Assembly: GCF_010692325.1 (NCBI RefSeq)
Contig: NZ_JAAHHW010000072.1
Location: 1-34,108, forward strand
DNA from: Moorena sp. SIO3I8
GTDB taxonomy: Bacteria; Cyanobacteriota; Cyanobacteriia; Cyanobacteriales; Coleofasciculaceae
Direction of reading: 5' to 3'
DNA: 34,108 bases
In this document: positions 1,967-34,022 of the stretch, piece after piece
Numbering within the stretch: the stretch's first letter is position 1
Layout of the letters: every line of letters starts with the position of its first letter
Notes under the pieces: generated by a model
Told to the model about the DNA's origin: nothing
Database searches by the model: none
Seen by the model: only the letters and a program-made list of their open reading frames with translations
Program-made: the position numbers and the translations under genes

Positions 1967-3319
1967 ATGAATGATAAACACCAGGAATTAATACCTACAC
2001 CTGAGGAGTATAGCTTATTAACTGACCTGTATCAGCTGACCATGACAGCCTGTTATAGTGGTGAAGGCTTAGCCCAAAAACCAGCTTCCTTTGAACTATT
2101 TGCGCGACGTTTACCTAATGGCTTTGGTTACTTGATTGCTATGGGACTCGCCCAGGTACTCGACTACCTGGAACAGTTTCGCTTTAGTCCCCAGGCACTA
2201 GAAGCATTACAACAGACAGAAATTTTTCAGGGAGCACCGGAACAGTTTTGGTCACTCTTAGCAGAAGGAAGCTTCACCGGTGATGTCTGGGCAGTGCCTG
2301 AGGGAACCGCAATGTTTGCTAATGAACCGTTGTTGCGGGTGGATGCTCCTCTGTGGCAAGCACAGATAGTAGAAACTTACCTACTCAATACAATTAACTA
2401 TCAAACCTTGATTGCCACTAAGGCAGCACGGCTCAGAGATGTGGCGGGGGCCGAGGCTACCTTACTAGAATTTGGCACTCGACGAGCCTTTAGTCCTCAG
2501 GCATCCTTGTGGGCAGCACGAGCAGCTATAGCAGGTGGGTTGGATGGCACATCTAATGTATTAGCAGCCCTGAAATTAGGATGTCAGCCTAAAGGAACCA
2601 TGGCTCATGCTTTGGTCATGGCGATCACAGCAGTATCTGGAAGTGAGCAGGATGCCTTTACAGCCTTTTATCGCTATTTTCCCAATGCTCCCTTATTAAT
2701 AGATACCTATGATACAGTAGCAGCCGCTGAGAGTCTGGCTCAACGAATCGCAGCTGGGGAAATCCAAGTGACTGGAGTACGTTTGGATTCTGGGGATTTA
2801 GTGACCTTGTCCCAAAAAGTGCGATCGCATTTACCCAATGTCTCAATTTTTGCCAGTGGGGATTTAGACGAGTATGAAATAGCCAGACTCAAACAGGCTG
2901 GTGCTTGTATCGACGGTTATGGACTCGGAACTCGCCTAGTCACTGGAAGCCCAGTCAATGGAGTCTACAAATTAGTAGAAATTGATGGCATTCCCACCAT
3001 GAAACAGTCCAGTAGCAAAATCACCTATCCAGGACGCAAGCAAATCTATCGCCAATTTCACCAAGATACAGTTATCAAAGACCGGCTAGGATTAATGGCT
3101 GAATCCTGCCAAGATCATGAACAACCTCTGCTCGAACAAGTCATCAAACAAGGTCAACGACTCAAGCTGCCAGAATCCTTATACACCATACAAAAACGCA
3201 CAGCTGCCTCTGTTGCTAGTCTTGCCACGTCAACCCGACAAGTTCATCAGCCAAGCCCACTACCTGTAGAAATTTCTGATGCCCTACAACAGCTCACCAT
3301 AGCTATCTCCAAAAGGTAA
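1967..3319 (+). CDS. pncB: Nicotinate phosphoribosyltransferase
   Basis: Cytosolic enzyme of the Preiss-Handler salvage route. It makes nicotinate mononucleotide from nicotinate and PRPP, coupled to ATP hydrolysis. The 450 aa from the ATG at 1967 begin MNDKHQELIPTPEEYSLLTD and show family motifs in order: TDLYQLTMTACY (res 19-30), FELFARRLPNGFGYL (42-56), LLEFGTRRAFSPQAS (166-180), GTMAHALVMA with the likely phosphorylated His (H214), DTYDT (246-250) and RLDSGD (272-277). Length is normal for the family. The frame is open upstream to a TTG at 1877, but those 30 residues look non-coding and the ATG matches homologue starts. In many cyanobacteria pncB lies next to nadD, a Nudix gene and nadE. 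Here those genes follow at 9836-14428 after unrelated insertions. Confidence 0.93.
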   Translation: MNDKHQELIPTPEEYSLLTDLYQLTMTACYSGEGLAQKPASFELFARRLPNGFGYLIAMGLAQVLDYLEQFRFSPQALEALQQTEIFQGAPEQFWSLLAEGSFTGDVWAVPEGTAMFANEPLLRVDAPLWQAQIVETYLLNTINYQTLIATKAARLRDVAGAEATLLEFGTRRAFSPQASLWAARAAIAGGLDGTSNVLAALKLGCQPKGTMAHALVMAITAVSGSEQDAFTAFYRYFPNAPLLIDTYDTVAAAESLAQRIAAGEIQVTGVRLDSGDLVTLSQKVRSHLPNVSIFASGDLDEYEIARLKQAGACIDGYGLGTRLVTGSPVNGVYKLVEIDGIPTMKQSSSKITYPGRKQIYRQFHQDTVIKDRLGLMAESCQDHEQPLLEQVIKQGQRLKLPESLYTIQKRTAASVASLATSTRQVHQPSPLPVEISDALQQLTIAISKR

Positions 3320-3367
3320 CCTGTCACACATTAATCAATAACTTAGATTGAATGCCAACTGCTCTAT

Positions 3368-3444
3368 TTCCTACTCCCTACTCCCTACTCCCTGCTCCCT
3401 AAAAAACCAGAAATATGTACTTAATAAAATCGTAAACCGCTATA
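3368..3444. repeat. Heptamer array (ccctact) plus 45-bp cap element
   Basis: About four 7-bp units of the ccctact/ccctgct type end at 3399. They run directly into taaaaaaccagaaatatgta and a further 25 bases ending accgctata (3400-3444). The same combination occurs at 26451-26522, 6583-6678 and, reduced to about one heptamer, at 24013-24060. It lies between the convergent pncB and channel genes. Confidence 0.7.
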
Positions 3445-3452
3445 ACAAATAA

Positions 3453-5705
3453 CTACAAATACCGCCAGCACAGAAGAGACGTATAAACTACCAAAATCAC
3501 TGGAAACGCCACTCTTCCAAACTCCATTAATTTGCTAATCTTGATTTTACCAGACTGAAACCCCTCACTATTCCCAATCACCACCATCAACAACTGTAAG
3601 CCATTGAGTATGTAAACGATATAAAAGGCATAGTCGAGAGCCACTACATAGCCAACCCCCTCCGGTAGTCCTTCTATCAAGCTTAGATGGTAAAATACAA
3701 TCGCTAGTAGCAAGCCACTTACTGCTTCTACGGACATGTGATCGAAGGGGAGAAACATAAACAGGTATCCCACCACCACAAAAAATAGTAGAGGCAAAAG
3801 ATTCTTGATACTAAAACTGACTAAATCCCGCTTGATTTTAATAACCACATTGAATCGAGAATATTCGATATCCGAATCTGTGTCTATAAATCGTCGATTG
3901 CCCAACGTGGAATTGTTAATCACCGTATCCTGGAAAAAGGCAGCACTCTCAACACTCCAATCGGTAATCTGATCAAACACTTTAGCTGTCTTCCAATTTT
4001 TGAGAACTTCTTCTGTAGTGGTATCTCTCATTCCCACGAAGTCCACTACATAAATTAGCTTGTCCCGAGTTAGGTTGAGATGTCGAAATCTCGCTGATAG
4101 GGTCTGAAGGTCAAACGGGTAATCGTGAAAATCAAACTTTTCATGAAAATCGGCTTTAACCCGGTATACTTTATATTTTATATCATTGTTTAAATCTGTA
4201 TCTATCGGTTCTTTTAAGGTCAATTTTTCTCCTGAATCTAGCCGCTCAATGCCATAATTTGTGAACTCGATTTGGTCGGCTGTAATATCCCCTTGGTACC
4301 TAAACCAAATGAAAAAATCAACCAAATATGAGGAGGTTTTTTCATCTATGTGACTAATCTCATTGATATCCATCCCGGTGTAAACGATATGGGTTTTTAC
4401 CATATAGTTATTACCAACCTTTACAATTTCACCACTGTCGAGCTGTTCCTCCAGATTAGCAACAGCCCGTAAGTCCGGGATTATTTGCAGCTGGCTAAAT
4501 GCTGAAATAAAATTTCTTCTATCAAAAATACCCACAAAAACGGGTGCTACTGCATTACCATAATAGTCAAAATAAATATTTCTGGTTGCCCCCTTGAACG
4601 CCGTTTCCTGGCTATTAATAGTTGCTAAGCTTTCTTTAAGCATCAAACGGTCTTTCGGTAAATCGTCCCAGGTAATATCAGAGCGTTTAATTGCCTCAAC
4701 AATGGCTTTTGCCGCATCATAATAGCAAGTCGCCACCCATCCCGGCGCTTGTTTGTACTGCTTTTCAAATTCGTTTCTGAACTGTTGACCGCTATCATCA
4801 GAAATGTCAAAAATAATCGGAGCAATGGCATAAATTCCATTGGTAAAGAAGCCTGGTTCATCCTTCTCCTCTGGGGAGTATTCAAACCGTTGCGCCAGGG
4901 ATATTTCGGCTAAGGAGTCACCGCCAAAAATGGGGAAATCCATCTTAGAACTCTTCATTTTGGCAATTAATCGAGCCACTTGATTGCGATTCGCTGTCAT
5001 CACAATCACTCCTGGGTCTTTCCCGCTATTTTTTAAAGCCAATAAATCTTGATAAATCGTTTCTATGGCTTGGTCTATATCATCCCCTAATACCCACTTA
5101 CTGGCTACTTCTCCCCCTAACTGCCGAAACGTCTCTTCAACAGTCTTCCCTAAGGTCAAGCCATAAGTGCTGGGGCTGGAAACTAGGCTAATCTTTGAAG
5201 ATCCCAGAATCTTTTTGATGTAATTGGCAATAAAAGTACCCTGAGCACTGTTAGAAAAAATGGTGCGAAAATACCAACTGTTCGATTGGGTGACCCCATC
5301 AGCAGTAGCTGAGCCGGTCACCGCAGGAATCTTATAGTCTTGATAAACTTTGCCAGCAGCCGTAGATACCCCACTACTGTAATGACCAATCACTGCGATC
5401 GCATTTGATTGAGCAATCTTCTTCGCAACCTGCTGTGCCACATCCGGATTGCCTTGGTCATCATAAACTTCAAGCTTAAATTTTTTCCCCTTAACACCGC
5501 CAGCCTTGTTAACTTGCTTAATGTAAAGTTGAGCACCGTCTACCATTGCTCTGCCTGAGCGTTGGGCTGATTCACTAGCATTGCTTAACGGAGCTGCGAT
5601 CGCAATGGTTATCCTCTCTTGATATCCCTCGAAGGTATCAATTGCTACAACTGTAGCCCAGGCAAGCAGTACTATAGATACTAATACGATGGCTTTTTTT
5701 AGCAT
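3453..5705 (-). CDS. LivJ-type binding protein fused to a pentameric ligand-gated ion channel (Cys-loop/Pro-loop) module
   Basis: A 750-aa receptor-like protein. Residues 5-20 form a hydrophobic signal or anchor helix. Residues 33-410 are a type I periplasmic binding domain of the LivJ/amino-acid receptor kind, with IGHYSSGVSTAAGKVY at 106-121, GSATADG at 131-137 and STYG at 179-182 where ligand-contact residues normally lie. Residues about 430-630 match the channel extracellular beta-sandwich, with the hallmark FDFHDYPFDLQTL at 524-536 (the Pro-loop, without the two cysteines of animal receptors). Four membrane helices follow: M1 631-652 with its conserved Pro at 638, M2 657-674, M3 684-710 and M4 731-748. 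An aggtga ribosome site precedes the ATG. Inference: an amino acid or similar ligand bound outside the cell opens a cation or anion channel. A passive sensor without conductance is possible. The gene stands alone, convergent with pncB. Confidence 0.88.
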   Translation of the reverse strand: MLKKAIVLVSIVLLAWATVVAIDTFEGYQERITIAIAAPLSNASESAQRSGRAMVDGAQLYIKQVNKAGGVKGKKFKLEVYDDQGNPDVAQQVAKKIAQSNAIAVIGHYSSGVSTAAGKVYQDYKIPAVTGSATADGVTQSNSWYFRTIFSNSAQGTFIANYIKKILGSSKISLVSSPSTYGLTLGKTVEETFRQLGGEVASKWVLGDDIDQAIETIYQDLLALKNSGKDPGVIVMTANRNQVARLIAKMKSSKMDFPIFGGDSLAEISLAQRFEYSPEEKDEPGFFTNGIYAIAPIIFDISDDSGQQFRNEFEKQYKQAPGWVATCYYDAAKAIVEAIKRSDITWDDLPKDRLMLKESLATINSQETAFKGATRNIYFDYYGNAVAPVFVGIFDRRNFISAFSQLQIIPDLRAVANLEEQLDSGEIVKVGNNYMVKTHIVYTGMDINEISHIDEKTSSYLVDFFIWFRYQGDITADQIEFTNYGIERLDSGEKLTLKEPIDTDLNNDIKYKVYRVKADFHEKFDFHDYPFDLQTLSARFRHLNLTRDKLIYVVDFVGMRDTTTEEVLKNWKTAKVFDQITDWSVESAAFFQDTVINNSTLGNRRFIDTDSDIEYSRFNVVIKIKRDLVSFSIKNLLPLLFFVVVGYLFMFLPFDHMSVEAVSGLLLAIVFYHLSLIEGLPEGVGYVVALDYAFYIVYILNGLQLLMVVIGNSEGFQSGKIKISKLMEFGRVAFPVILVVYTSLLCWRYL

Positions 5706-5725
5706 ATATCACCTGATCAGTTGAA

Positions 5726-5995
5726 TGGTCACAGATTACAGGTTACAGGTTTAACGTTACAGGTTTAACGTTACAGGTTACAGGTTGTTCGCGTAGCGTG
5801 GCCTTTTGGCCAAGGTTACAGGTTGAAAGTTACAGGTTGAAAGTTACAGGTTGAAGGTTGTTCGCGTAGCGTGGCCTTTTGGCCAAGGTTACAGGTTGTT
5901 CGCGTAGCGTGGCCTTTTGGCCAAGGTTACAGGTTACAGGTTTAACGTTATAAAGTTTATATTTTACGTTACAGGTTACATGTTACATGTTTAAC
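5726..5995. repeat. Tandem gttacag-type heptamers with three embedded palindromic repeats
   Basis: Upstream of the channel gene, variants of gttacag, gtttaac and gttgaaa repeat with a roughly 7-bp period. Inside lie three identical 26-bp copies beginning ttcgcgtagcgtggcc, at 5788-5813, 5861-5886 and 5899-5924, each flanked by the same ggtt/ggtt junctions. Any promoter of the channel gene must lie within or upstream of this array. Confidence 0.85.
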
Positions 5996-6045
5996 GTTAC
6001 AGGTTGCCAGTTATACATCCGGCTTTCAGTTCTTAAGCCTCTAAT

Positions 6046-6345
6046 CTTCAACCATCAACCATCAAACCTTCAAACCATCAACCATCAAACCTTCTATCTT
6101 AAACCATCAACCATCAACCATCAAACCTTCAAACCATCAACCATCAAACCTTCAACCTTCAACCTTCAACCTTCAACCTTCAACCTTCAACCTTCAACCT
6201 TCAAACCATCAACCATCAAACCTTGGCCAAAAGGCCACGCGCTTCGCAGCAAAGCGGGACTTCGTCCATCGCGTTCAACCTTACCTGGCTTCGTGAGTGG
6301 GCAATCACGCCCTTGCTGCAATGGCGGCGATTAAACCTTTCTAAA
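6046..6345. repeat. caaccttcaa heptamer array followed by a composite palindromic repeat
   Basis: Units of caacctt and caaccat repeat from about 6049 to 6222. Next comes ttggccaaaaggccacgc (6223-6240, inverse of the palindromic family), then a second repeat type containing agcaaagcgggacttcgtcc (near 6248-6267). That second type has relatives at 9640-9680 and, inverted, at 21151-21213. The open frame across this tract has no coding character. Confidence 0.8.
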
Positions 6346-6582
6346 AACCACGAATTAGAACTGTCAATAAAATTATTTAAAACAGGATAAAGGCTTGTGA
6401 AAAATGATCAATGATCAATGATTAATAGACTGAATTATAGCCAAGTCAACCTTTTTACAATCAACCTTGTCTAAAAAAAACATCCCTTAGGACTTTTAGA
6501 ATAAACTAGGTGGCAATTTAATCAATATTTTTTTAATTTTATTCTCTCTATTGACTTTATTATATCTATTACTTATTTTTAA

Positions 6583-6678
6583 TATAGCGGTTCTGATATT
6601 AATGAGGTAGACATAATTTTTTCCCTATTCCCTATTCCCTATTCCCTATTCCCTATTCCCTATTCCCTATTCCCTATT
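6583..6678. repeat. Cap element plus eight exact ccctatt heptamers
   Basis: tatagcggttctgatattaa and about 20 further bases (6583-6622) are followed by eight perfect ccctatt units (6623-6678). The first part is the inverse-orientation relative of the elements at 3400-3444 and 26479-26522. This is a short tandemly repeated repetitive (STRR) array. Confidence 0.85.
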
Positions 6679-7408
6679 TTCTGTAATAGAGCCATAGCAA
6701 TTGCTTTAGGTAAGATCCTCAGGGATATCACCGGCACTTCCGTGCTATAAATTCGGGTTCTTCAGTACCTGCTATGCGATCATTTCAAGTAAAAAAAATC
6801 ATAAAGCTTACTCTACAAGGGAAATGTATTTAATTAACAATAATTTCTAAATACTGCCTCTTTCCACTGCTCCCTACTCCCTGCTCCCTGCTCCCTTTGC
6901 CAAAGTGTTAATTTAGCATAACAAGTACGGAAGAGCCTAAATTCGATAAACTAATAGGTGGTAACTATTCATCTATCAGCTCCTCAGCCGTCAGCTTTGG
7001 AAGGGTTAACTTCTGTTGCTCTCATCTGAATGTTCGCTTTTCCAGGTTTAGATACTTGTTTAATTCTTTAATTAAATAAAACAATACACCATTAAACCTT
7101 TTAAGCAAAGCTTATGAAGCATAAGTAACAACAGGGATTAATTATGAAATAAATGTGAAATAATGTGAAATTAAGCTCAACTGATGATCTGAGCTCAAGT
7201 TGTGCTCAAATGGCGCAGATCGACCTAGGGGTCTCCTGTCCATGGAACACTGTCAAGAAAAACCTTTTGAAACCTTCATCAACTTCTGGCTATGAGGCGG
7301 TGGATGAACCTTCCTGTAGTGGTATCAATTTAATTGTAGTTAAGAATATAATTTATATTTACTAAGTAAAGTATTGTATTATACTGAAAGGTTGAGCTAA
7401 TTTGTTAA
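6679..7408. other. Intergenic, 730 bp, no gene recognised
   Basis: AT-rich sequence. The only structured piece is a short heptamer run of the ccctact/ccctgct type near 6868-6896. A 66-codon frame at 7165-7365 has no ribosome site and no coding look. The last 60 bases form the leader of the MscS gene. Confidence 0.6.
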
Positions 7409-8986
7409 GTGAACAACATAATTATTATCTTGGCTGAAGTCAGCCTGGTCATCGTAGTTTTCTGTCTAGTCAACTGGCTGGTGGGTATACTATTCAAGCA
7501 ACTGATCAGAGTTGCTTGGTTCCAAAAGGTGAACAGCAATGCTAGAAACCTCCGCCAGAACCTCCAGGCGCTGATCGTTATCTGTTGTATAGCGCTATGC
7601 CTTCTAATTGTTGGTGGCAACGGTTGGCTGATCTATCGCGGGAAAGACCTCAAGGAATACACACTTGGGTTAGTGAGCAATATTCCCAAAGGATTCTGGA
7701 TAACCCTTGGCACTGGGTTAGGCAAATGCATCTGCCTTCTGATGCTAGTTGCGTTCGCCATGAAACCCTTGCAGCGTTTGCTCAACTATGGCTGCGTTCG
7801 GGCAAAGAAACTAGAACAAATCACTGCTAGTGATGAAAGCATTGAGGATTTGTTCAGTTACTTAACCAAAATCCTTACCAGTGGACTCTGGCTGCTTTCC
7901 CTAATCTGGTGTACCCAGTTTCTGAAAGTGCCAGAATCCACAACTAAGTATCTGTACGTTCTTCTTAACATCTATCTGATTATTGGAATCGGGTTGCTCA
8001 TTCTGAGATCCATCGTGGTCATTATCGATAGCATAGACAACCTGACTGTTCAATACTCTAGCCCTGATAATATCCTGCGATTCTATAGCAATCTCAGGCA
8101 TCGGATTCCTTTCTTTAAGGGGTGCCTAGAATATATAATCTATGTTACCATGGCCACCCTGGTGGTTGAGCAAGTAGAGATAATTGCTAACTTAGCCACC
8201 TATGGATCGAAAGCTGTCAAAATTATCGGTATCATCTTCCTGAGTCGTGGCTTGATCGTGATCGCCAATTTGTTCCTCGAAGAAGCACTGCTTAGGTCCC
8301 CGAAGCTGACTGATGTGCAGCGAAAGAAGCGGTTAACGATTATTCCCATACTAGAGAGTTTACTGAAGTACTTGATTTACTTCGGTTCGGGTATATTGAT
8401 CCTCGATACCATAGAAATTGACGCCACCCCAATCCTAGCGGGTGCTGGCATTGTGGGGCTAGCGGTCGGTCTTGGGGCGCAGAATCTCATTAACGATATG
8501 GTTAGTGGATTCTTTATTCTCTTTGAAAACTACTACCTGGTAGGTGACTATATCCAAACAGGGGAAGCCGAGGGGATTGTGGAGGCGATTGAACTGAGAA
8601 CTACCCGTATTCGACACTTCAATGGTCAAATGCATATTATTCGGAACGGGGATATTGGCTCAATTACCAACTACTCCAAGGACTATATCTATGCTGTAGT
8701 GGAAGTTGGCATAGAATATGATGCTGACCTGGATCATGTGTACAGGGTGATCGAAAAGGTGGGACACCAGTTAAAAGAGAAGTATTCCGAGGTAATTGAA
8801 CCGACCAAGGTGGATGGAATCGAGGACTTTGGGGATTTTGATCTGTCCATAAGAACCGTTACCAAAGTTAAACCTGGAAAGCACCGCCTGATTAAGCTAG
8901 TGCTTCGTAAAATGATCAAGGATTTCTTTGACCAGGAGGGCATTGAATTAAACTTTCAGGATCCGGTGTTTATTTTGAAACAATAG
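7409..8986 (+). CDS. MscS-family mechanosensitive channel
   Basis: A 525-aa inner-membrane protein with several N-terminal helices (about 4-30, 52-75, 95-118, 152-172, 180-207, 238-258, 270-290) before the conserved MscS module. The pore-lining TM3 is at about 339-372 and contains GAGIVGLAVGLGAQNLINDM, with the Gly/Ala packing pattern and Gln-Asn before the kink. A beta domain (NYYLVGDYI, 374-382; RNGDIGSITNYSKDY, 412-426) and an alpha/beta C-terminal domain ending near 522 follow. E. coli MscS is about 286 aa, so this belongs to the larger multi-helix subclass. It likely releases solutes on hypo-osmotic shock. The start is the GTG at 7409 with only a weak ribosome site; there is no better start close by. 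It lies alone between repeat-rich gaps, upstream of nadD. Confidence 0.9.
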   Translation: MNNIIIILAEVSLVIVVFCLVNWLVGILFKQLIRVAWFQKVNSNARNLRQNLQALIVICCIALCLLIVGGNGWLIYRGKDLKEYTLGLVSNIPKGFWITLGTGLGKCICLLMLVAFAMKPLQRLLNYGCVRAKKLEQITASDESIEDLFSYLTKILTSGLWLLSLIWCTQFLKVPESTTKYLYVLLNIYLIIGIGLLILRSIVVIIDSIDNLTVQYSSPDNILRFYSNLRHRIPFFKGCLEYIIYVTMATLVVEQVEIIANLATYGSKAVKIIGIIFLSRGLIVIANLFLEEALLRSPKLTDVQRKKRLTIIPILESLLKYLIYFGSGILILDTIEIDATPILAGAGIVGLAVGLGAQNLINDMVSGFFILFENYYLVGDYIQTGEAEGIVEAIELRTTRIRHFNGQMHIIRNGDIGSITNYSKDYIYAVVEVGIEYDADLDHVYRVIEKVGHQLKEKYSEVIEPTKVDGIEDFGDFDLSIRTVTKVKPGKHRLIKLVLRKMIKDFFDQEGIELNFQDPVFILKQ

Positions 8987-9835: not shown

Positions 9836-10402
9836 ATGGTCAATATTGCCCTGTTTGGTACCAGTGCAGATCCCCCAACTTGTGCTCATCAAGCCATTCT
9901 CCAGTGGCTATCCCATCACTATGACCAAGTGGTGGTTTGGGCATCAGATAATCCATTCAAGTCTCATCAGACCACCCTAGAACAACGTTCCCAAATGCTC
10001 ACGTTACTGATTGAGGAGATTGACCCGTATCAAAATCCGATCCGTGTCAGCCCCGACTTGAGTAGCCCGAGAACCTTGGAAACCATAGCACTAGTTAAAC
10101 AGCGCTGGGGATTACAGGCAAACTTGACTCTGGTGATTGGTACTGATTTAATCCGTCAGATGCCCCGTTGGTATCAAATTGAACAATTGTTAAAACAAGT
10201 ACAGTTGCTGGTGATACCTCGTTCAGGATATGGAGTAGATCAGGCTAGTTTAGAAAAGTTGAAGCATCTAGGAGCACAATTAGCGATCGCTAATATTACG
10301 GTACCATCAGTTTCCTCTACAGCGTATCGTGAGAATGGTGATACAACAGCACTGACTCCTCTGGTTAAGGACTATATCCATCAAGAGCAGTTGTACCAAT
10401 GA
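9836..10402 (+). CDS. nadD: Nicotinate-nucleotide adenylyltransferase
   Basis: Transfers AMP from ATP to nicotinate mononucleotide, giving nicotinate adenine dinucleotide, the middle step of NAD synthesis. The 188 aa have the nucleotidyltransferase N-terminus IALFGTSADPPTCAHQ (4-19; the T-x-x-H signature, with H18), GTDLIRQMPRW (102-112) and the C-terminal ISSTxYR-type motif, here VSSTAYR (159-165). Length is typical. Its last four bases overlap the start of the Nudix/NrtR-like frame (atga at 10399-10402), so the two were translationally coupled. With pncB and nadE it forms the nicotinate-to-NAD route. No strong Shine-Dalgarno precedes the ATG at 9836. Confidence 0.92.
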   Translation: MVNIALFGTSADPPTCAHQAILQWLSHHYDQVVVWASDNPFKSHQTTLEQRSQMLTLLIEEIDPYQNPIRVSPDLSSPRTLETIALVKQRWGLQANLTLVIGTDLIRQMPRWYQIEQLLKQVQLLVIPRSGYGVDQASLEKLKHLGAQLAIANITVPSVSSTAYRENGDTTALTPLVKDYIHQEQLYQ

Positions 10403-11275
10403 CCCAAAGCAGCAATATAAAGGTCAAACTACCAGCTCTAGCCAACCTCCAGGTCAGGGCCCGTCATGTGATTTTTTCCGTCAATACCCAACAAAGCCGC
10501 CTTTTGGTACTCCAAGAGGAAGCCTTCCTCGGTAAATCGAGTTTACCAGGAACCTTGGTGTGGGACGGAGAATCATTAGACCATGCTGCCGATTGGCCTT
10601 GGCCTTGGCCTATTGGCCACGCTACGCGAATGGGCCACGCGGGGCGCGTTTGGCCACGCTACGCGATTGGCCTTGGCCTTTGGGCCACGCGGGGCGCGTT
10701 TGGCCACGCTACGCGAACGGATTTGGGCAGAGAAAATTCGAGTTAACAACGTGAACCTAGAGCAACTGTACACTTTCGGAGAACTAGGTCGTTATCAACC
10801 AAAATTGGTTAGAGTCGAGGTTACCTATAACCACCACTACGCCATGGGTTACCTATCCGTCAGTTACTTTGCCCTAGAGCGACTAGAAGAAGCTAAATTC
10901 AACACAGATGATGTCAGTGGTATTGCCTGGTATTCCATCGAGCATGTGCCGCAGCTCGCCTTTGACCATAATCAAATTTTGGACTATGGTTATCGGCATT
11001 TGCGCAACAAATTGGCAGACAATTCTGTCGCCTTTGACCTGTTCCGAGATGTATTTACCATCAAAAATATCTATACTATTTATCGACTGTACACCACATT
11101 TTTTTTTGAAAACGTCTCTGATTATTACAATTTTAGCCCTCGTCTTTTAAAGCTATGCTTCCTGGCTGATACTAGTTGAAAAGTGTCTCAGGGAGCAGGT
11201 CATCCATGAAGTTTGTACCGCTTTGATGCGGAGGCATATGCTCGTTTAAAGGATAAACCGTTGGTATTTATTTAG
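10399..11275 (+). pseudogene. Broken NrtR-like Nudix regulator of NAD metabolism
   Basis: Three segments make one protein. Frame 1 from 10399 gives MTQSSNIKVKLPALANL to DGESLDHAA, the Nudix-like core. A 124-bp repeat (10591-10714) then shifts the frame by +1, and [13 protein letters not shown] resumes at 10715. After TGA at 11177 the same frame continues KVSQGAGHP, meets a second TGA at 11207, and goes on SLYRFDAEAYARLKDKPLVFI to TAG at 11275. Both TGAs are single-base changes from GGA. The region after 11030 ([10 protein letters not shown] to [12 protein letters not shown]) matches the C-terminal winged helix of NrtR regulators rather than a plain Nudix hydrolase. Overlap with nadD and nearness to nadE support a role in NAD control. 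It is almost certainly inactive. A hydrolase of the same fold remains possible. Confidence 0.8.
10591..10714. repeat. 124-bp palindromic-repeat insertion in the nrtR-like gene
   Basis: Begins gattggccttggccttggcc exactly after the codon for the last Ala of DHAA and ends gctacgc just before the GAA of ERIWAEK. It contains several cacgctacgcga and ggggcgcgtttgg blocks. Length 124 is not a multiple of three, which explains the frame change. Confidence 0.88.
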
Positions 11276-32597: not shown

Positions 32598-32677
32598 ACT
32601 ACGTTGTTCGCGTTCGCGCAGCGGAGGCCGTAGGCCACGCTTCGCGAACGGCTTTGCCGAAAGCGTGGCCTACGGCC
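32598..32677. repeat. 80-bp palindromic repeat in the loop of the tnpB right-end hairpin
   Basis: Made of gttcgcgttcgcgcagcgga, ggccgtaggccacgc, ttcgcgaacggctttgccga and aagcgtggcctacggcc. Its two halves pair with each other. It also supplies the final codons (WP) and stop of TnpB. Confidence 0.82.
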
Positions 32678-33911
32678 AGGTCGGGGCTTCCAGTTTCACG
32701 GAAGAATGCCTTAACTTGGACGGGCGTCCACGTCTTGGTCTTGCTTCTTCTCCACTGGCGTTGACCTCCTCCGTCCCAGAGGAGGCTAGCATTCTGATGC
32801 CTTCTGCCCTAATATTCTTTGCCGCATTACCATCTCTATCGTGATGAGTTCCACAATTTGGACAAGTCCAAGTCCTGATATCCAGTGGCAACTTTTTGAT
32901 TCGGTAATGACAATTAGAGCAGGTTTTGGAACTAGGGAACCATCGACTTATTTCGACCAACACTTTCCCCTCTTTCTCGCACTTATAAGAAAGAAAATTC
33001 ACAAAAGTTCCCCAACCTAGATCAGATATTGCTTTAGCTAATTTATGGTTACGTTCGCGAAGCGTGCGCGTAGCGCACAGCATGCCCTTGACATTTAGGT
33101 TTTCGACTACCACTACTTGGTTGTTGTCAACTATCTTCCTAGATAGCTTATGGAGGTAGTCTTGGCGGACATTTCCAATCTGTTCGTATACCTTAGCTAC
33201 AATCTTTTTGGCTTTTTTGCGCCCATTACTGCCTTTTTTCTTTCGGGCAGCAATACGTTGCTTTTTGGCCAGTTTATTTTCGTACTTAGCTAAGTGCCTT
33301 GGATTCCTAAACTTGGAAATCTTTTCGCCATCGTAGGTAATAGCAAAATCCTTAATGCCCAAATCAATTCCGATAAACTTTCCCTTTGTGGAAGGCTGTA
33401 AATAATCCGAATCATATTCCATCAACACAGAAGCATAGTACTTCCCAGAGGGGGTTTTACTGACGGTTACAGTTTTGATTTCTCCATCTAGTGGTCGGTG
33501 AATTATTGCCTTGACAAATCCTAATTTCCCAGGAAATTTAAGGCAGTCATCAACTTGTTTTACGTTCTGGGGATACTGAATCGATTGGCGCTGATGATAT
33601 GATTTGAACCTAGGATATTCAGCCCTAGCCTCAAAGAAATTTTGATAGGCACGACTAAGATTGAGGCTCACAGATTGTAAAACCTGAGAATAACATTCTT
33701 TTAGCCATTCAGTCTCTTTTTGTTTTTTGAGTTTTGGTAGCATAGAGTTGAGTGCAGATTGTTTTAGCCCTTTGCCAGTTTCTTTATAGGTTTCTATACA
33801 CTGATTTAGCGCATAATTCCACCACCAACGAGCACACCCAAAATGTTGGGCAAGGATTTGAACCTGTTCTTGGGTGGGATAGATTCTGACTTTGACGGCT
33901 CTATGTTTCAT
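32670..33911 (-). CDS. tnpB: TnpB RNA-guided nuclease, with a 10-residue repeat insert
   Basis: About 413 aa from ATG 33911 (MKHRAVKVRIYPTQEQVQIL); the frame opens at a TTG nine bases earlier, which is used for numbering. An N-terminal helix-turn-helix and beta region is followed by the RuvC core: D186 (FIGIDLGIKDFA), E273 (VVVENLNVKGM) and the DRD at 361-363 (HDRDGNAAKNI). A zinc ribbon lies between them (C334, C337, C353, C356). TnpB proteins cut DNA guided by the RNA from the element's right end. Residues 281-290 (LCATRTLRER) are an in-frame palindromic-repeat insertion between KGM and NHKL, right after a catalytic Glu. The C-terminal tail is basic and ends in repeat-derived TWP. All catalytic residues are present, but the two insertions make activity uncertain. 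Confidence 0.93.
   Translation of the reverse strand: MKHRAVKVRIYPTQEQVQILAQHFGCARWWWNYALNQCIETYKETGKGLKQSALNSMLPKLKKQKETEWLKECYSQVLQSVSLNLSRAYQNFFEARAEYPRFKSYHQRQSIQYPQNVKQVDDCLKFPGKLGFVKAIIHRPLDGEIKTVTVSKTPSGKYYASVLMEYDSDYLQPSTKGKFIGIDLGIKDFAITYDGEKISKFRNPRHLAKYENKLAKKQRIAARKKKGSNGRKKAKKIVAKVYEQIGNVRQDYLHKLSRKIVDNNQVVVVENLNVKGMLCATRTLRERNHKLAKAISDLGWGTFVNFLSYKCEKEGKVLVEISRWFPSSKTCSNCHYRIKKLPLDIRTWTCPNCGTHHDRDGNAAKNIRAEGIRMLASSGTEEVNASGEEARPRRGRPSKLRHSSVKLEAPTWP
33051..33080. repeat. 30-bp palindromic repeat inside tnpB
   Basis: acgttcgcgaagcg is followed by the stem gtgcgc-gta-gcgcac. It encodes LCATRTLRER on the minus strand without shifting the frame. Confidence 0.82.
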
Positions 33912-34022
33912 TACACTCAACCTCTTTATCGACCTTAATTACTATTATATATATTTTCTATTAAGGAGTCAAGGTATAAAGCTGACTGACGGACACTTTT
34001 TTTTGTACATTTAGCAGTACAT

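Follow-up and report, generated by a model that had tools for sequence, protein, structure and literature searches.

How might a bacterium couple the capture of an amino acid to the opening of an ion channel? A gene of the cyanobacterium Moorena sp. SIO3I8 raises this question. It lies on the minus strand at 3453-5705 of contig NZ_JAAHHW010000072.1 (assembly GCF_010692325.1), of which positions 1 to 34,108 were analysed; this stretch of 34,108 nucleotides is called the window. The protein joins a LivJ-type periplasmic binding domain (PBP-I) to the ligand-binding domain (LBD) and membrane helices of a pentameric ligand-gated ion channel (pLGIC). We propose, with a probability of a little over 60%, that it is the subunit of a homopentameric amino-acid-gated channel of the plasma membrane.

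A binding domain and a Cys-loop-type channel in one chain

The original prediction, made from the DNA letters, described a single 750-codon frame with a LivJ-like binding domain followed by a Cys-loop-type channel module, and each of these elements held up. Residues 30-403 scored above the curated cut-off of Peripla_BP_6 and adopt the LivJ fold, which places them in the PBP-I/HAAT amino-acid binding family. All 50 rows listed in a fold search with the whole model were PBP-I matches, and the majority of the ten best structural matches belonged to the amino-acid class (branched-chain, Ala/GABA-receptor). Modelled and searched by itself as a monomer, the channel half returned the pLGIC fold, with a beta-sandwich extracellular domain followed by a four-helix transmembrane domain (TMD) and the M1 proline at P638. 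The frame is real, being intact in three further genomes of the genus (93-96% identity) as well as in the window, with no stop or frameshift between the domains; the channel half is 94% identical to that of Moorena bouillonii PNG. The plus strand across 3453-5705 contains stops throughout and no open frame. The features of the gene are as follows.

3453..5705, minus strand: PBP-I/pLGIC fusion gene, 750 codons plus stop, ATG at 5705; intact orthologues in 3 congeners
5625..5702, minus strand: N-terminal hydrophobic helix, residues 2-27 (signal peptide or uncleaved anchor), from DSSP of the model
4497..5618, minus strand: PBP-I (LivJ-type Venus-flytrap) domain, residues 30-403, by Pfam and fold
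5373..5375, minus strand: S111, aligned with LivJ S79
5304..5306, minus strand: T134, aligned with LivJ T102
5163..5165, minus strand: Y181, aligned with LivJ Y150
4917..4919, minus strand: D263, aligned to D of 4gnr, at the place of LivJ E226
3831..4493, minus strand: linker and pLGIC beta-sandwich LBD, residues 405-625, from alignment and fold of the model
4104..4130, minus strand: Pro-loop FHDYPFDLQ, residues 526-534, with P530 and D532, from conservation in alignments
3828..3830, minus strand: R626, pre-M1 arginine, aligned with GLIC R192; in 58/58 pLGIC-pored rows
3759..3824, minus strand: M1, residues 628-649, from the model; contains P638, invariant in 11 aligned rows
3669..3731, minus strand: M2, residues 659-679, presumed pore helix, from the model; E660 invariant in 11 aligned rows
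3573..3653, minus strand: M3, residues 685-711, from the model
3459..3548, minus strand: M4, residues 720-749, from the model; C-terminus expected periplasmic from pLGIC family topology

Alignment to LivJ and LBP indicated that the Ser/Thr/Tyr/acid set for an alpha-amino acid is complete in the window protein (S111, T134, Y181, D263). We take this set to be what marks alpha-amino acid binding in the PBP-I/HAAT family, and assume the LivJ numbering S79/T102/Y150/E226 and the corresponding ligand roles, E226 contacting the amino group and D263 presumably being its equivalent. Among the 13 rows assigned to the window clade, Ser was present in 12 and Thr, Tyr and Asp in all 13; the counts were 47, 40, 43 and 40 in 51 pLGIC rows lacking a PBP-II domain. 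The pocket appears fit for an alpha-amino acid, short of proof.

The Pro-loop proline, the sole absolutely conserved residue of that motif across the superfamily (Jaiteh et al. 2016, PMC4795631; papers with PMC numbers are cited throughout from parts of their text), corresponds to P530 and was found in 58/58 pLGIC-pored rows. In GLIC, a D32-R192-D122 triad couples the two domains, D122 being the Pro-loop Asp and R192 the pre-M1 residue (PMC5760087). Both of the latter have counterparts in the window protein, R626 and D532; the acid at 532 was present in 58/58 pLGIC-pored rows (56 D, 2 E). The window clade has an acidic residue near M2 0', where many relatives have Arg, and the channel is for this reason probably cation-selective. 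M2 starts with 'AR' in L088, L094 and L099 (L numbers denote loci of the survey below), where the window clade is acidic; 'AR' also stands in the PAR motif of animal anion channels, and selectivity may differ within the family.

One ectodomain on two unrelated pores

To find relatives, a channel profile was run against a collection of genome contigs described as covering 84,980 species, and 91 places were confirmed; 79 loci were kept and their frames scanned with hidden Markov models (HMMs) built for this analysis. The original prediction had called for a survey of the same two-domain order, and PBP-I indeed preceded the LBD in 78/79 loci, the remaining one being cut by a contig end; because the loci were found by patterns from a channel profile of PBP-I-bearing proteins, the sample leans towards such proteins. 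Among the 76 complete loci, 47 encode PBP-I, LBD and pLGIC TMD (including L119 and L126, whose TMD fell below the HMM threshold and which were classed from their C-terminal tails), and 11 add a C-terminal SBP_bac_1-type domain after M4. The other 18 carry PBP-I and LBD on an MscS pore, with a cyclic-nucleotide domain in 14 of them (L116, L117, L121, L125, L128-L133, L136-L140, L142, L143 and L145 are the MscS-pored loci). The window protein itself has no MscS beta-domain. L079 and L141 (cut, broken) were left out of the trees, L144 out of the class counts and L115 out of the PBP tree. A Pfam check confirmed the MscS type in L117, L125, L131, L145, L116, L139, L180, L182, L183 and Azospirillum sp. 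B510, and the triple fusion in three frames of L031/L032 and in L092. The same ectodomain on an MscS pore was also found at L191:2875-6246.

In an LBD tree rooted by eight simple pLGICs, the MscS-pored proteins formed one clade (99/93) with the contig-truncated L144 inside it, the backbone being unresolved. When six MscS-pored rows were added (quick method), all 24 and L144 again formed one clade, with an SH-aLRT of 96. The pLGIC pore is likely ancestral by parsimony, because the outgroup has it. In a PBP-I tree (quick method), 19/20 MscS-pored rows grouped together, and the row of Xenococcus PCC 7305 (L183:663-3608) fell outside. The LBD of this protein lies within the MscS clade and its PBP-I does not, which possibly reflects a later PBP-I exchange, a second pore swap or poor tree resolution.

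Ectodomain columns were scanned in 62 pLGIC-pored and 18 MscS-pored rows for those with one residue in at least 85% of the former and that residue in at most 25% of the latter. The LBD columns lost in MscS-pored proteins were 446, 526, 529, 530 and 532, and the PBP-I columns 133 and 261; 19/31 conserved LBD columns and 33/41 conserved PBP columns were kept. Four of the five lost LBD columns fall within the Pro-loop (hypergeometric p 8e-4 among 31 columns, taken as independent). A separate alignment of 58 pLGIC-pored and 18 MscS-pored proteins gave the same picture: P530 was found in all of the former and 1/18 of the latter, an acid at 532 in all versus 3/18, and R626 in all versus none of 17 readable, whereas D463, W467 and D555 were invariant in both pore classes. 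L116, on the second branch of its clade, is the lone MscS-pored protein with a YPxD loop. In seven extra MscS-pored proteins from outside the scan, the Pro-loop Asp was absent (0/7, one having Glu), the pre-M1 Arg was found in 0/5 readable and W467 in 7/7. The coupling set of Pro-loop and R626 persists in proteins with a pLGIC pore and erodes in those that join this ectodomain to an MscS pore. Since the GLIC triad links the two domains, the loop apparently serves the pLGIC pore and is dispensable to the sensor head. The binding pocket is largely retained across the swap, with Ser in 18, Thr in 17, Tyr in 18 and Asp in 14 of the 18 MscS-pored rows.

We favour, on balance, the view that PBP-I and the Cys-loop-type beta-sandwich make up a self-contained amino-acid receptor head that sits on two unrelated pores. 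One is the pLGIC bundle, probably ancestral, with the Pro-loop kept; the other is an MscS-type pore, often with a cytoplasmic cyclic-nucleotide domain, where most members have lost the Pro-loop and the pre-M1 Arg. In some pLGIC versions M4 is followed by a second binding protein, of the sugar type, and the nearest solved relatives of one such third domain were sugar-binding proteins. The M4 helix of pLGICs ends in the periplasm, so this PBP-II domain should face the PBP-I side.

Several arrangements were seen beside these architectures. Triple fusions of PBP-I, pLGIC and SBP_bac_1 form a tandem pair at L031:900-4463 and 4550-8101, and another at L032:3499-7134 is followed by a copy lacking PBP-II. 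Behind this second tandem gene, which ends within the linker found ahead of PBP-II in its sister, a separate PBP-II-like frame (L032:9836-10303) is probably a decayed third domain. Tandem copies occur in L075, L078, L081, L096, L103, L104, L108, L119, L120 and L126, and adjacent paralogues could form mixed pentamers. In genome G022 and in Xenococcus PCC 7305, the channel frame begins inside the frame of a stand-alone solute-binding protein (SBP_bac_8/1); a single protein query of the window genome for such a stand-alone PBP-II partner found none, an empty result that is uninformative alone. In genomes of the Desulfobacterales type, frames combining Peripla_BP_6 and SBP_bac_5 (L090:1245-3959, L108:148-3123, L120:1936-4686, L126:473-3205, L186:358-3156) immediately precede PBP-I/pLGIC genes. 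At L089:255-3200 and 3277-4500, a fusion of SBP_bac_5 with an MscS pore was seen next to an unfused MscS gene and a PBP-I/pLGIC gene. On one strand of L167, a PBP-I-like frame (204-1304) overlaps a simple channel frame (1232-2623), possibly an unfused pair or a frameshift.

Of 386 cyanobacterial genomes sampled across the phylum, 22 matched the channel profile and 7 of these had the PBP-I form; the LBD profile matched 8 of 297 genomes from the phylum to which Desulfonema magnum belongs, and in 2 of these the matching frame also encodes PBP-I. Copies can be numerous, as in D. magnum (8 frames in 9 matches: MscS pore 2, TMD hit 3, TMD below threshold 3) and a Parabeggiatoa bin (15 matches that fall at 12 places, one of these containing stops), and Xenococcus PCC 7305 holds both pore types in one genome. 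Hosts include Moorena, Okeania, Spirulina, Beggiatoa kin, Thioploca, Desulfonema, Anaerolineae and Streptomyces; many of the hosts are filamentous, gliding or giant.

Proposed gating and its alternatives

The domains, folds, intactness and conservation described above are consistent with the following mechanism, in which we infer the pentameric assembly, the ligand, the direction of gating (opening, as opposed to block or modulation) and the ion selectivity. Five periplasmic PBP-I flytraps would stand atop a ring of Cys-loop-type beta-sandwiches. Binding of an alpha-amino acid between the lobes would close them, and this closure would shift the linker of about residues 405-435 into strand beta-1. 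A twist of the beta-sandwich ring would follow, the Pro-loop (P530/D532) and pre-M1 R626 would relay this movement to the membrane helices, and M2 would open.

The strongest competing explanation, which we nevertheless find unlikely, is that PBP-I modulates allosterically or concentrates the ligand, and that the true agonist binds at the classical site between subunits in the beta-sandwich (or protons or Ca2+ act there), as in GLIC, ELIC and DeCLIC. GLIC and ELIC open without any PBP, and the amino-terminal PBP-I-like domain of AMPA and NMDA receptors modulates rather than gates; Tasneem et al. also proposed that PBP-I first concentrates or senses the ligand, which the channel LBD then binds (PMC549065, in the text available). 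Two findings speak against it, namely that PBP-I lies ahead of this LBD subtype in all loci except the fragment at a contig end, and that it was retained after the pore swap with most of its conserved columns still conserved; they suggest a central rather than an accessory role. A PBP-I-tethered channel could instead respond to a HAAT/amide-class ligand other than an amino acid (urea, an aromatic acid or a keto acid). This is distinctly improbable given a Ser/Thr/Tyr/Asp set that is complete in nearly every window-clade row and structural matches that are mostly amino-acid-class proteins. The atypical M2 of the window clade, with its two-residue gap and E where others have R, might indicate a receptor that has kept the channel fold and passes no ions; we give this very little credence, as the M1 Pro, M2, the Pro-loop and R626 are conserved across distant cyanobacteria and Thiotrichaceae.

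Other observations weigh against the amino-acid-gated channel. As the MscS-pored proteins form one clade, the Pro-loop losses represent a few events and not 18. In another alignment 3/18 MscS-pored proteins have Pro at the Pro-loop Pro column, as do 2/7 of the extra ones (both Azospirillum). The third triad member (GLIC loop-2 Asp, D32) aligns at the variable E455, or one residue off at D454, and the two-residue alignment gap of the window-clade M2 relative to most relatives makes pore numbering and selectivity unsure. Pocket letters are retained less often in the 11 rows with PBP-II (S 8, T 5, Y 5, D 4), and the G022 protein, outside the 13 rows, has Asn at the D263 position. Among 24 other cyanobacterial PBP-I segments used as a control, 16 had all four letters, 7 had at least one position unaligned and 1 differed, so the letters indicate competence for an amino acid, not specificity. 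Finally, our literature search found no measurement of ligand, current or assembly for PBP-I/pLGIC fusions. The amino-acid-gated channel of the original prediction is thus reasonable from the four pocket residues and the structural matches, and its specificity is not established by them.

Known architectures, gene context and significance

The prediction had also suggested that the architecture was experimentally uncharacterised, while allowing that the fold combination might be in print. The first part agrees with our search; the combination was described by Tasneem et al. in 2004, for acetylcholine-receptor-type channels of Magnetospirillum and Bradyrhizobium that carry PBP-I as an N-terminal fusion, along with MCP-N/Cache fusions and stand-alone PBP-II neighbours (PMC549065). 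The window protein has their PBP-I-ART-LGIC architecture, with the same order of PBP-I, beta-sandwich LBD and four membrane helices in one chain. Compared by description, those fusions were reported only for alphaproteobacteria, and cyanobacterial channels were then called simple, in the text at hand (PMC549065). GLIC (Gloeobacter) and ELIC share the LBD and four-helix subunit, the Pro-loop and the pre-M1 Arg (aligned for GLIC only), but lack an N-terminal domain and are proton- or amine-gated. DeCLIC (Desulfofustis), another bacterial pLGIC, likewise has a large periplasmic domain at its N-terminus; that domain consists of two jelly-roll lobes with Ca2+ sites and is not PBP-I, whereas residues 30-403 of the window protein are PBP-I by Pfam and fold. 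In the excerpts available, DeCLIC is the only such channel whose N-terminal domain is solved or partly characterised (PMC9897478, PMC12664993), the 2025 paper naming it the sole pLGIC with a partially characterised one (PMC12664993).

Metabotropic glutamate receptors and the amino-terminal domains of ionotropic ones use a different membrane machine in each case. GluR0 of Synechocystis is of the PBP-II type and tetrameric. Like the window protein it is a cyanobacterial protein with extracellular ligand-binding parts, here a glutamate-receptor homologue with a role in cell-volume control under KCl upshock; unlike it, GluR0 has a K+-channel pore between two binding-domain halves (PMC13099474). 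The window protein has a pLGIC TMD and no SBP_bac-type domain, and hence not the PBP-II split around an inverted K+-channel-like pore of ionotropic glutamate receptors. The pore of the swapped relatives matches that of MscS/YnaI (YnaI, E 1.9e-20) and bCNG; bCNG proteins are not known to carry a PBP-I/LBD ectodomain. Jaiteh et al. discarded terminal parts and recommended the study of domain architectures (PMC4795631, in part). No PBP-I/LBD/MscS or PBP-I/pLGIC/PBP-II protein was found by title or abstract start among the matches listed, in a search that covered few subscription journals. The window protein is a further case of a known, apparently unmeasured architecture, and the pore swap and the triple fusion are, as far as this search goes, unreported.

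An assembly or frameshift artefact was considered and rejected, because the fusion gene is unbroken in all four Moorena genomes and the MscS-pored type is present in complete records (D. magnum NZ_CP061800.1, L129; Azospirillum sp. B510 NC_013856.1). In two of the three congeners, as in the window, the gene is flanked by pncB-like and MscS-like genes, with nadD-like and Nudix-like genes further out and, in one, also a nadE-like gene; in the third a contig ends just beyond it. Names of neighbours, MscS excepted, were assigned by sight. The adjoining MscS-family gene (window 7409-8986) also lies beside the orthologue in 3 congeners, and MscS-like frames near channel genes occur in L075 and L089. 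The Nudix-like gene (10399-11179) is split over two overlapping frames and contains a repeat array (10612-10709); its counterpart in a congener is a single frame (L036:3384-4088). Dense 7-mer and 14-mer repeat arrays occupy 5727-6224, upstream of the fusion gene start, and a gene that by sight resembles OrfB/TnpB of the IS200/IS605 type lies at 32670-33920. A promoter and terminator scan gave no more sites than shuffled sequence, a search for viral homologues gave one stretch that fitted a pattern and 0 confirmed, and PF02931 had no match in the window genome or in the control genomes.

According to Jaiteh et al. 2016 (PMC4795631, in part), not one pLGIC from a unicellular organism had a known biological role. 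Here the chain includes its own probable ligand sensor, so that both the agonist and the gating can be tested directly; our guess is that released amino acids are sensed for motility or for osmotic or ionic adjustment. The class can hide in databases, as the only annotated relative looked at, from Azospirillum sp. B510, is named 'ABC transporter substrate-binding protein'. The pore swap amounts to a natural domain-exchange experiment that separates ectodomain residues serving the pLGIC pore (Pro-loop, pre-M1 Arg) from those of the sensor. MscS-type pores are normally heptameric, and the swap poses the puzzle of a five-fold head on a seven-fold pore. If our reading is true, there would be a class of bacterial nutrient-gated channels whose pore can be exchanged, and Cys-loop-type ectodomains would gate a channel that is not a pLGIC.
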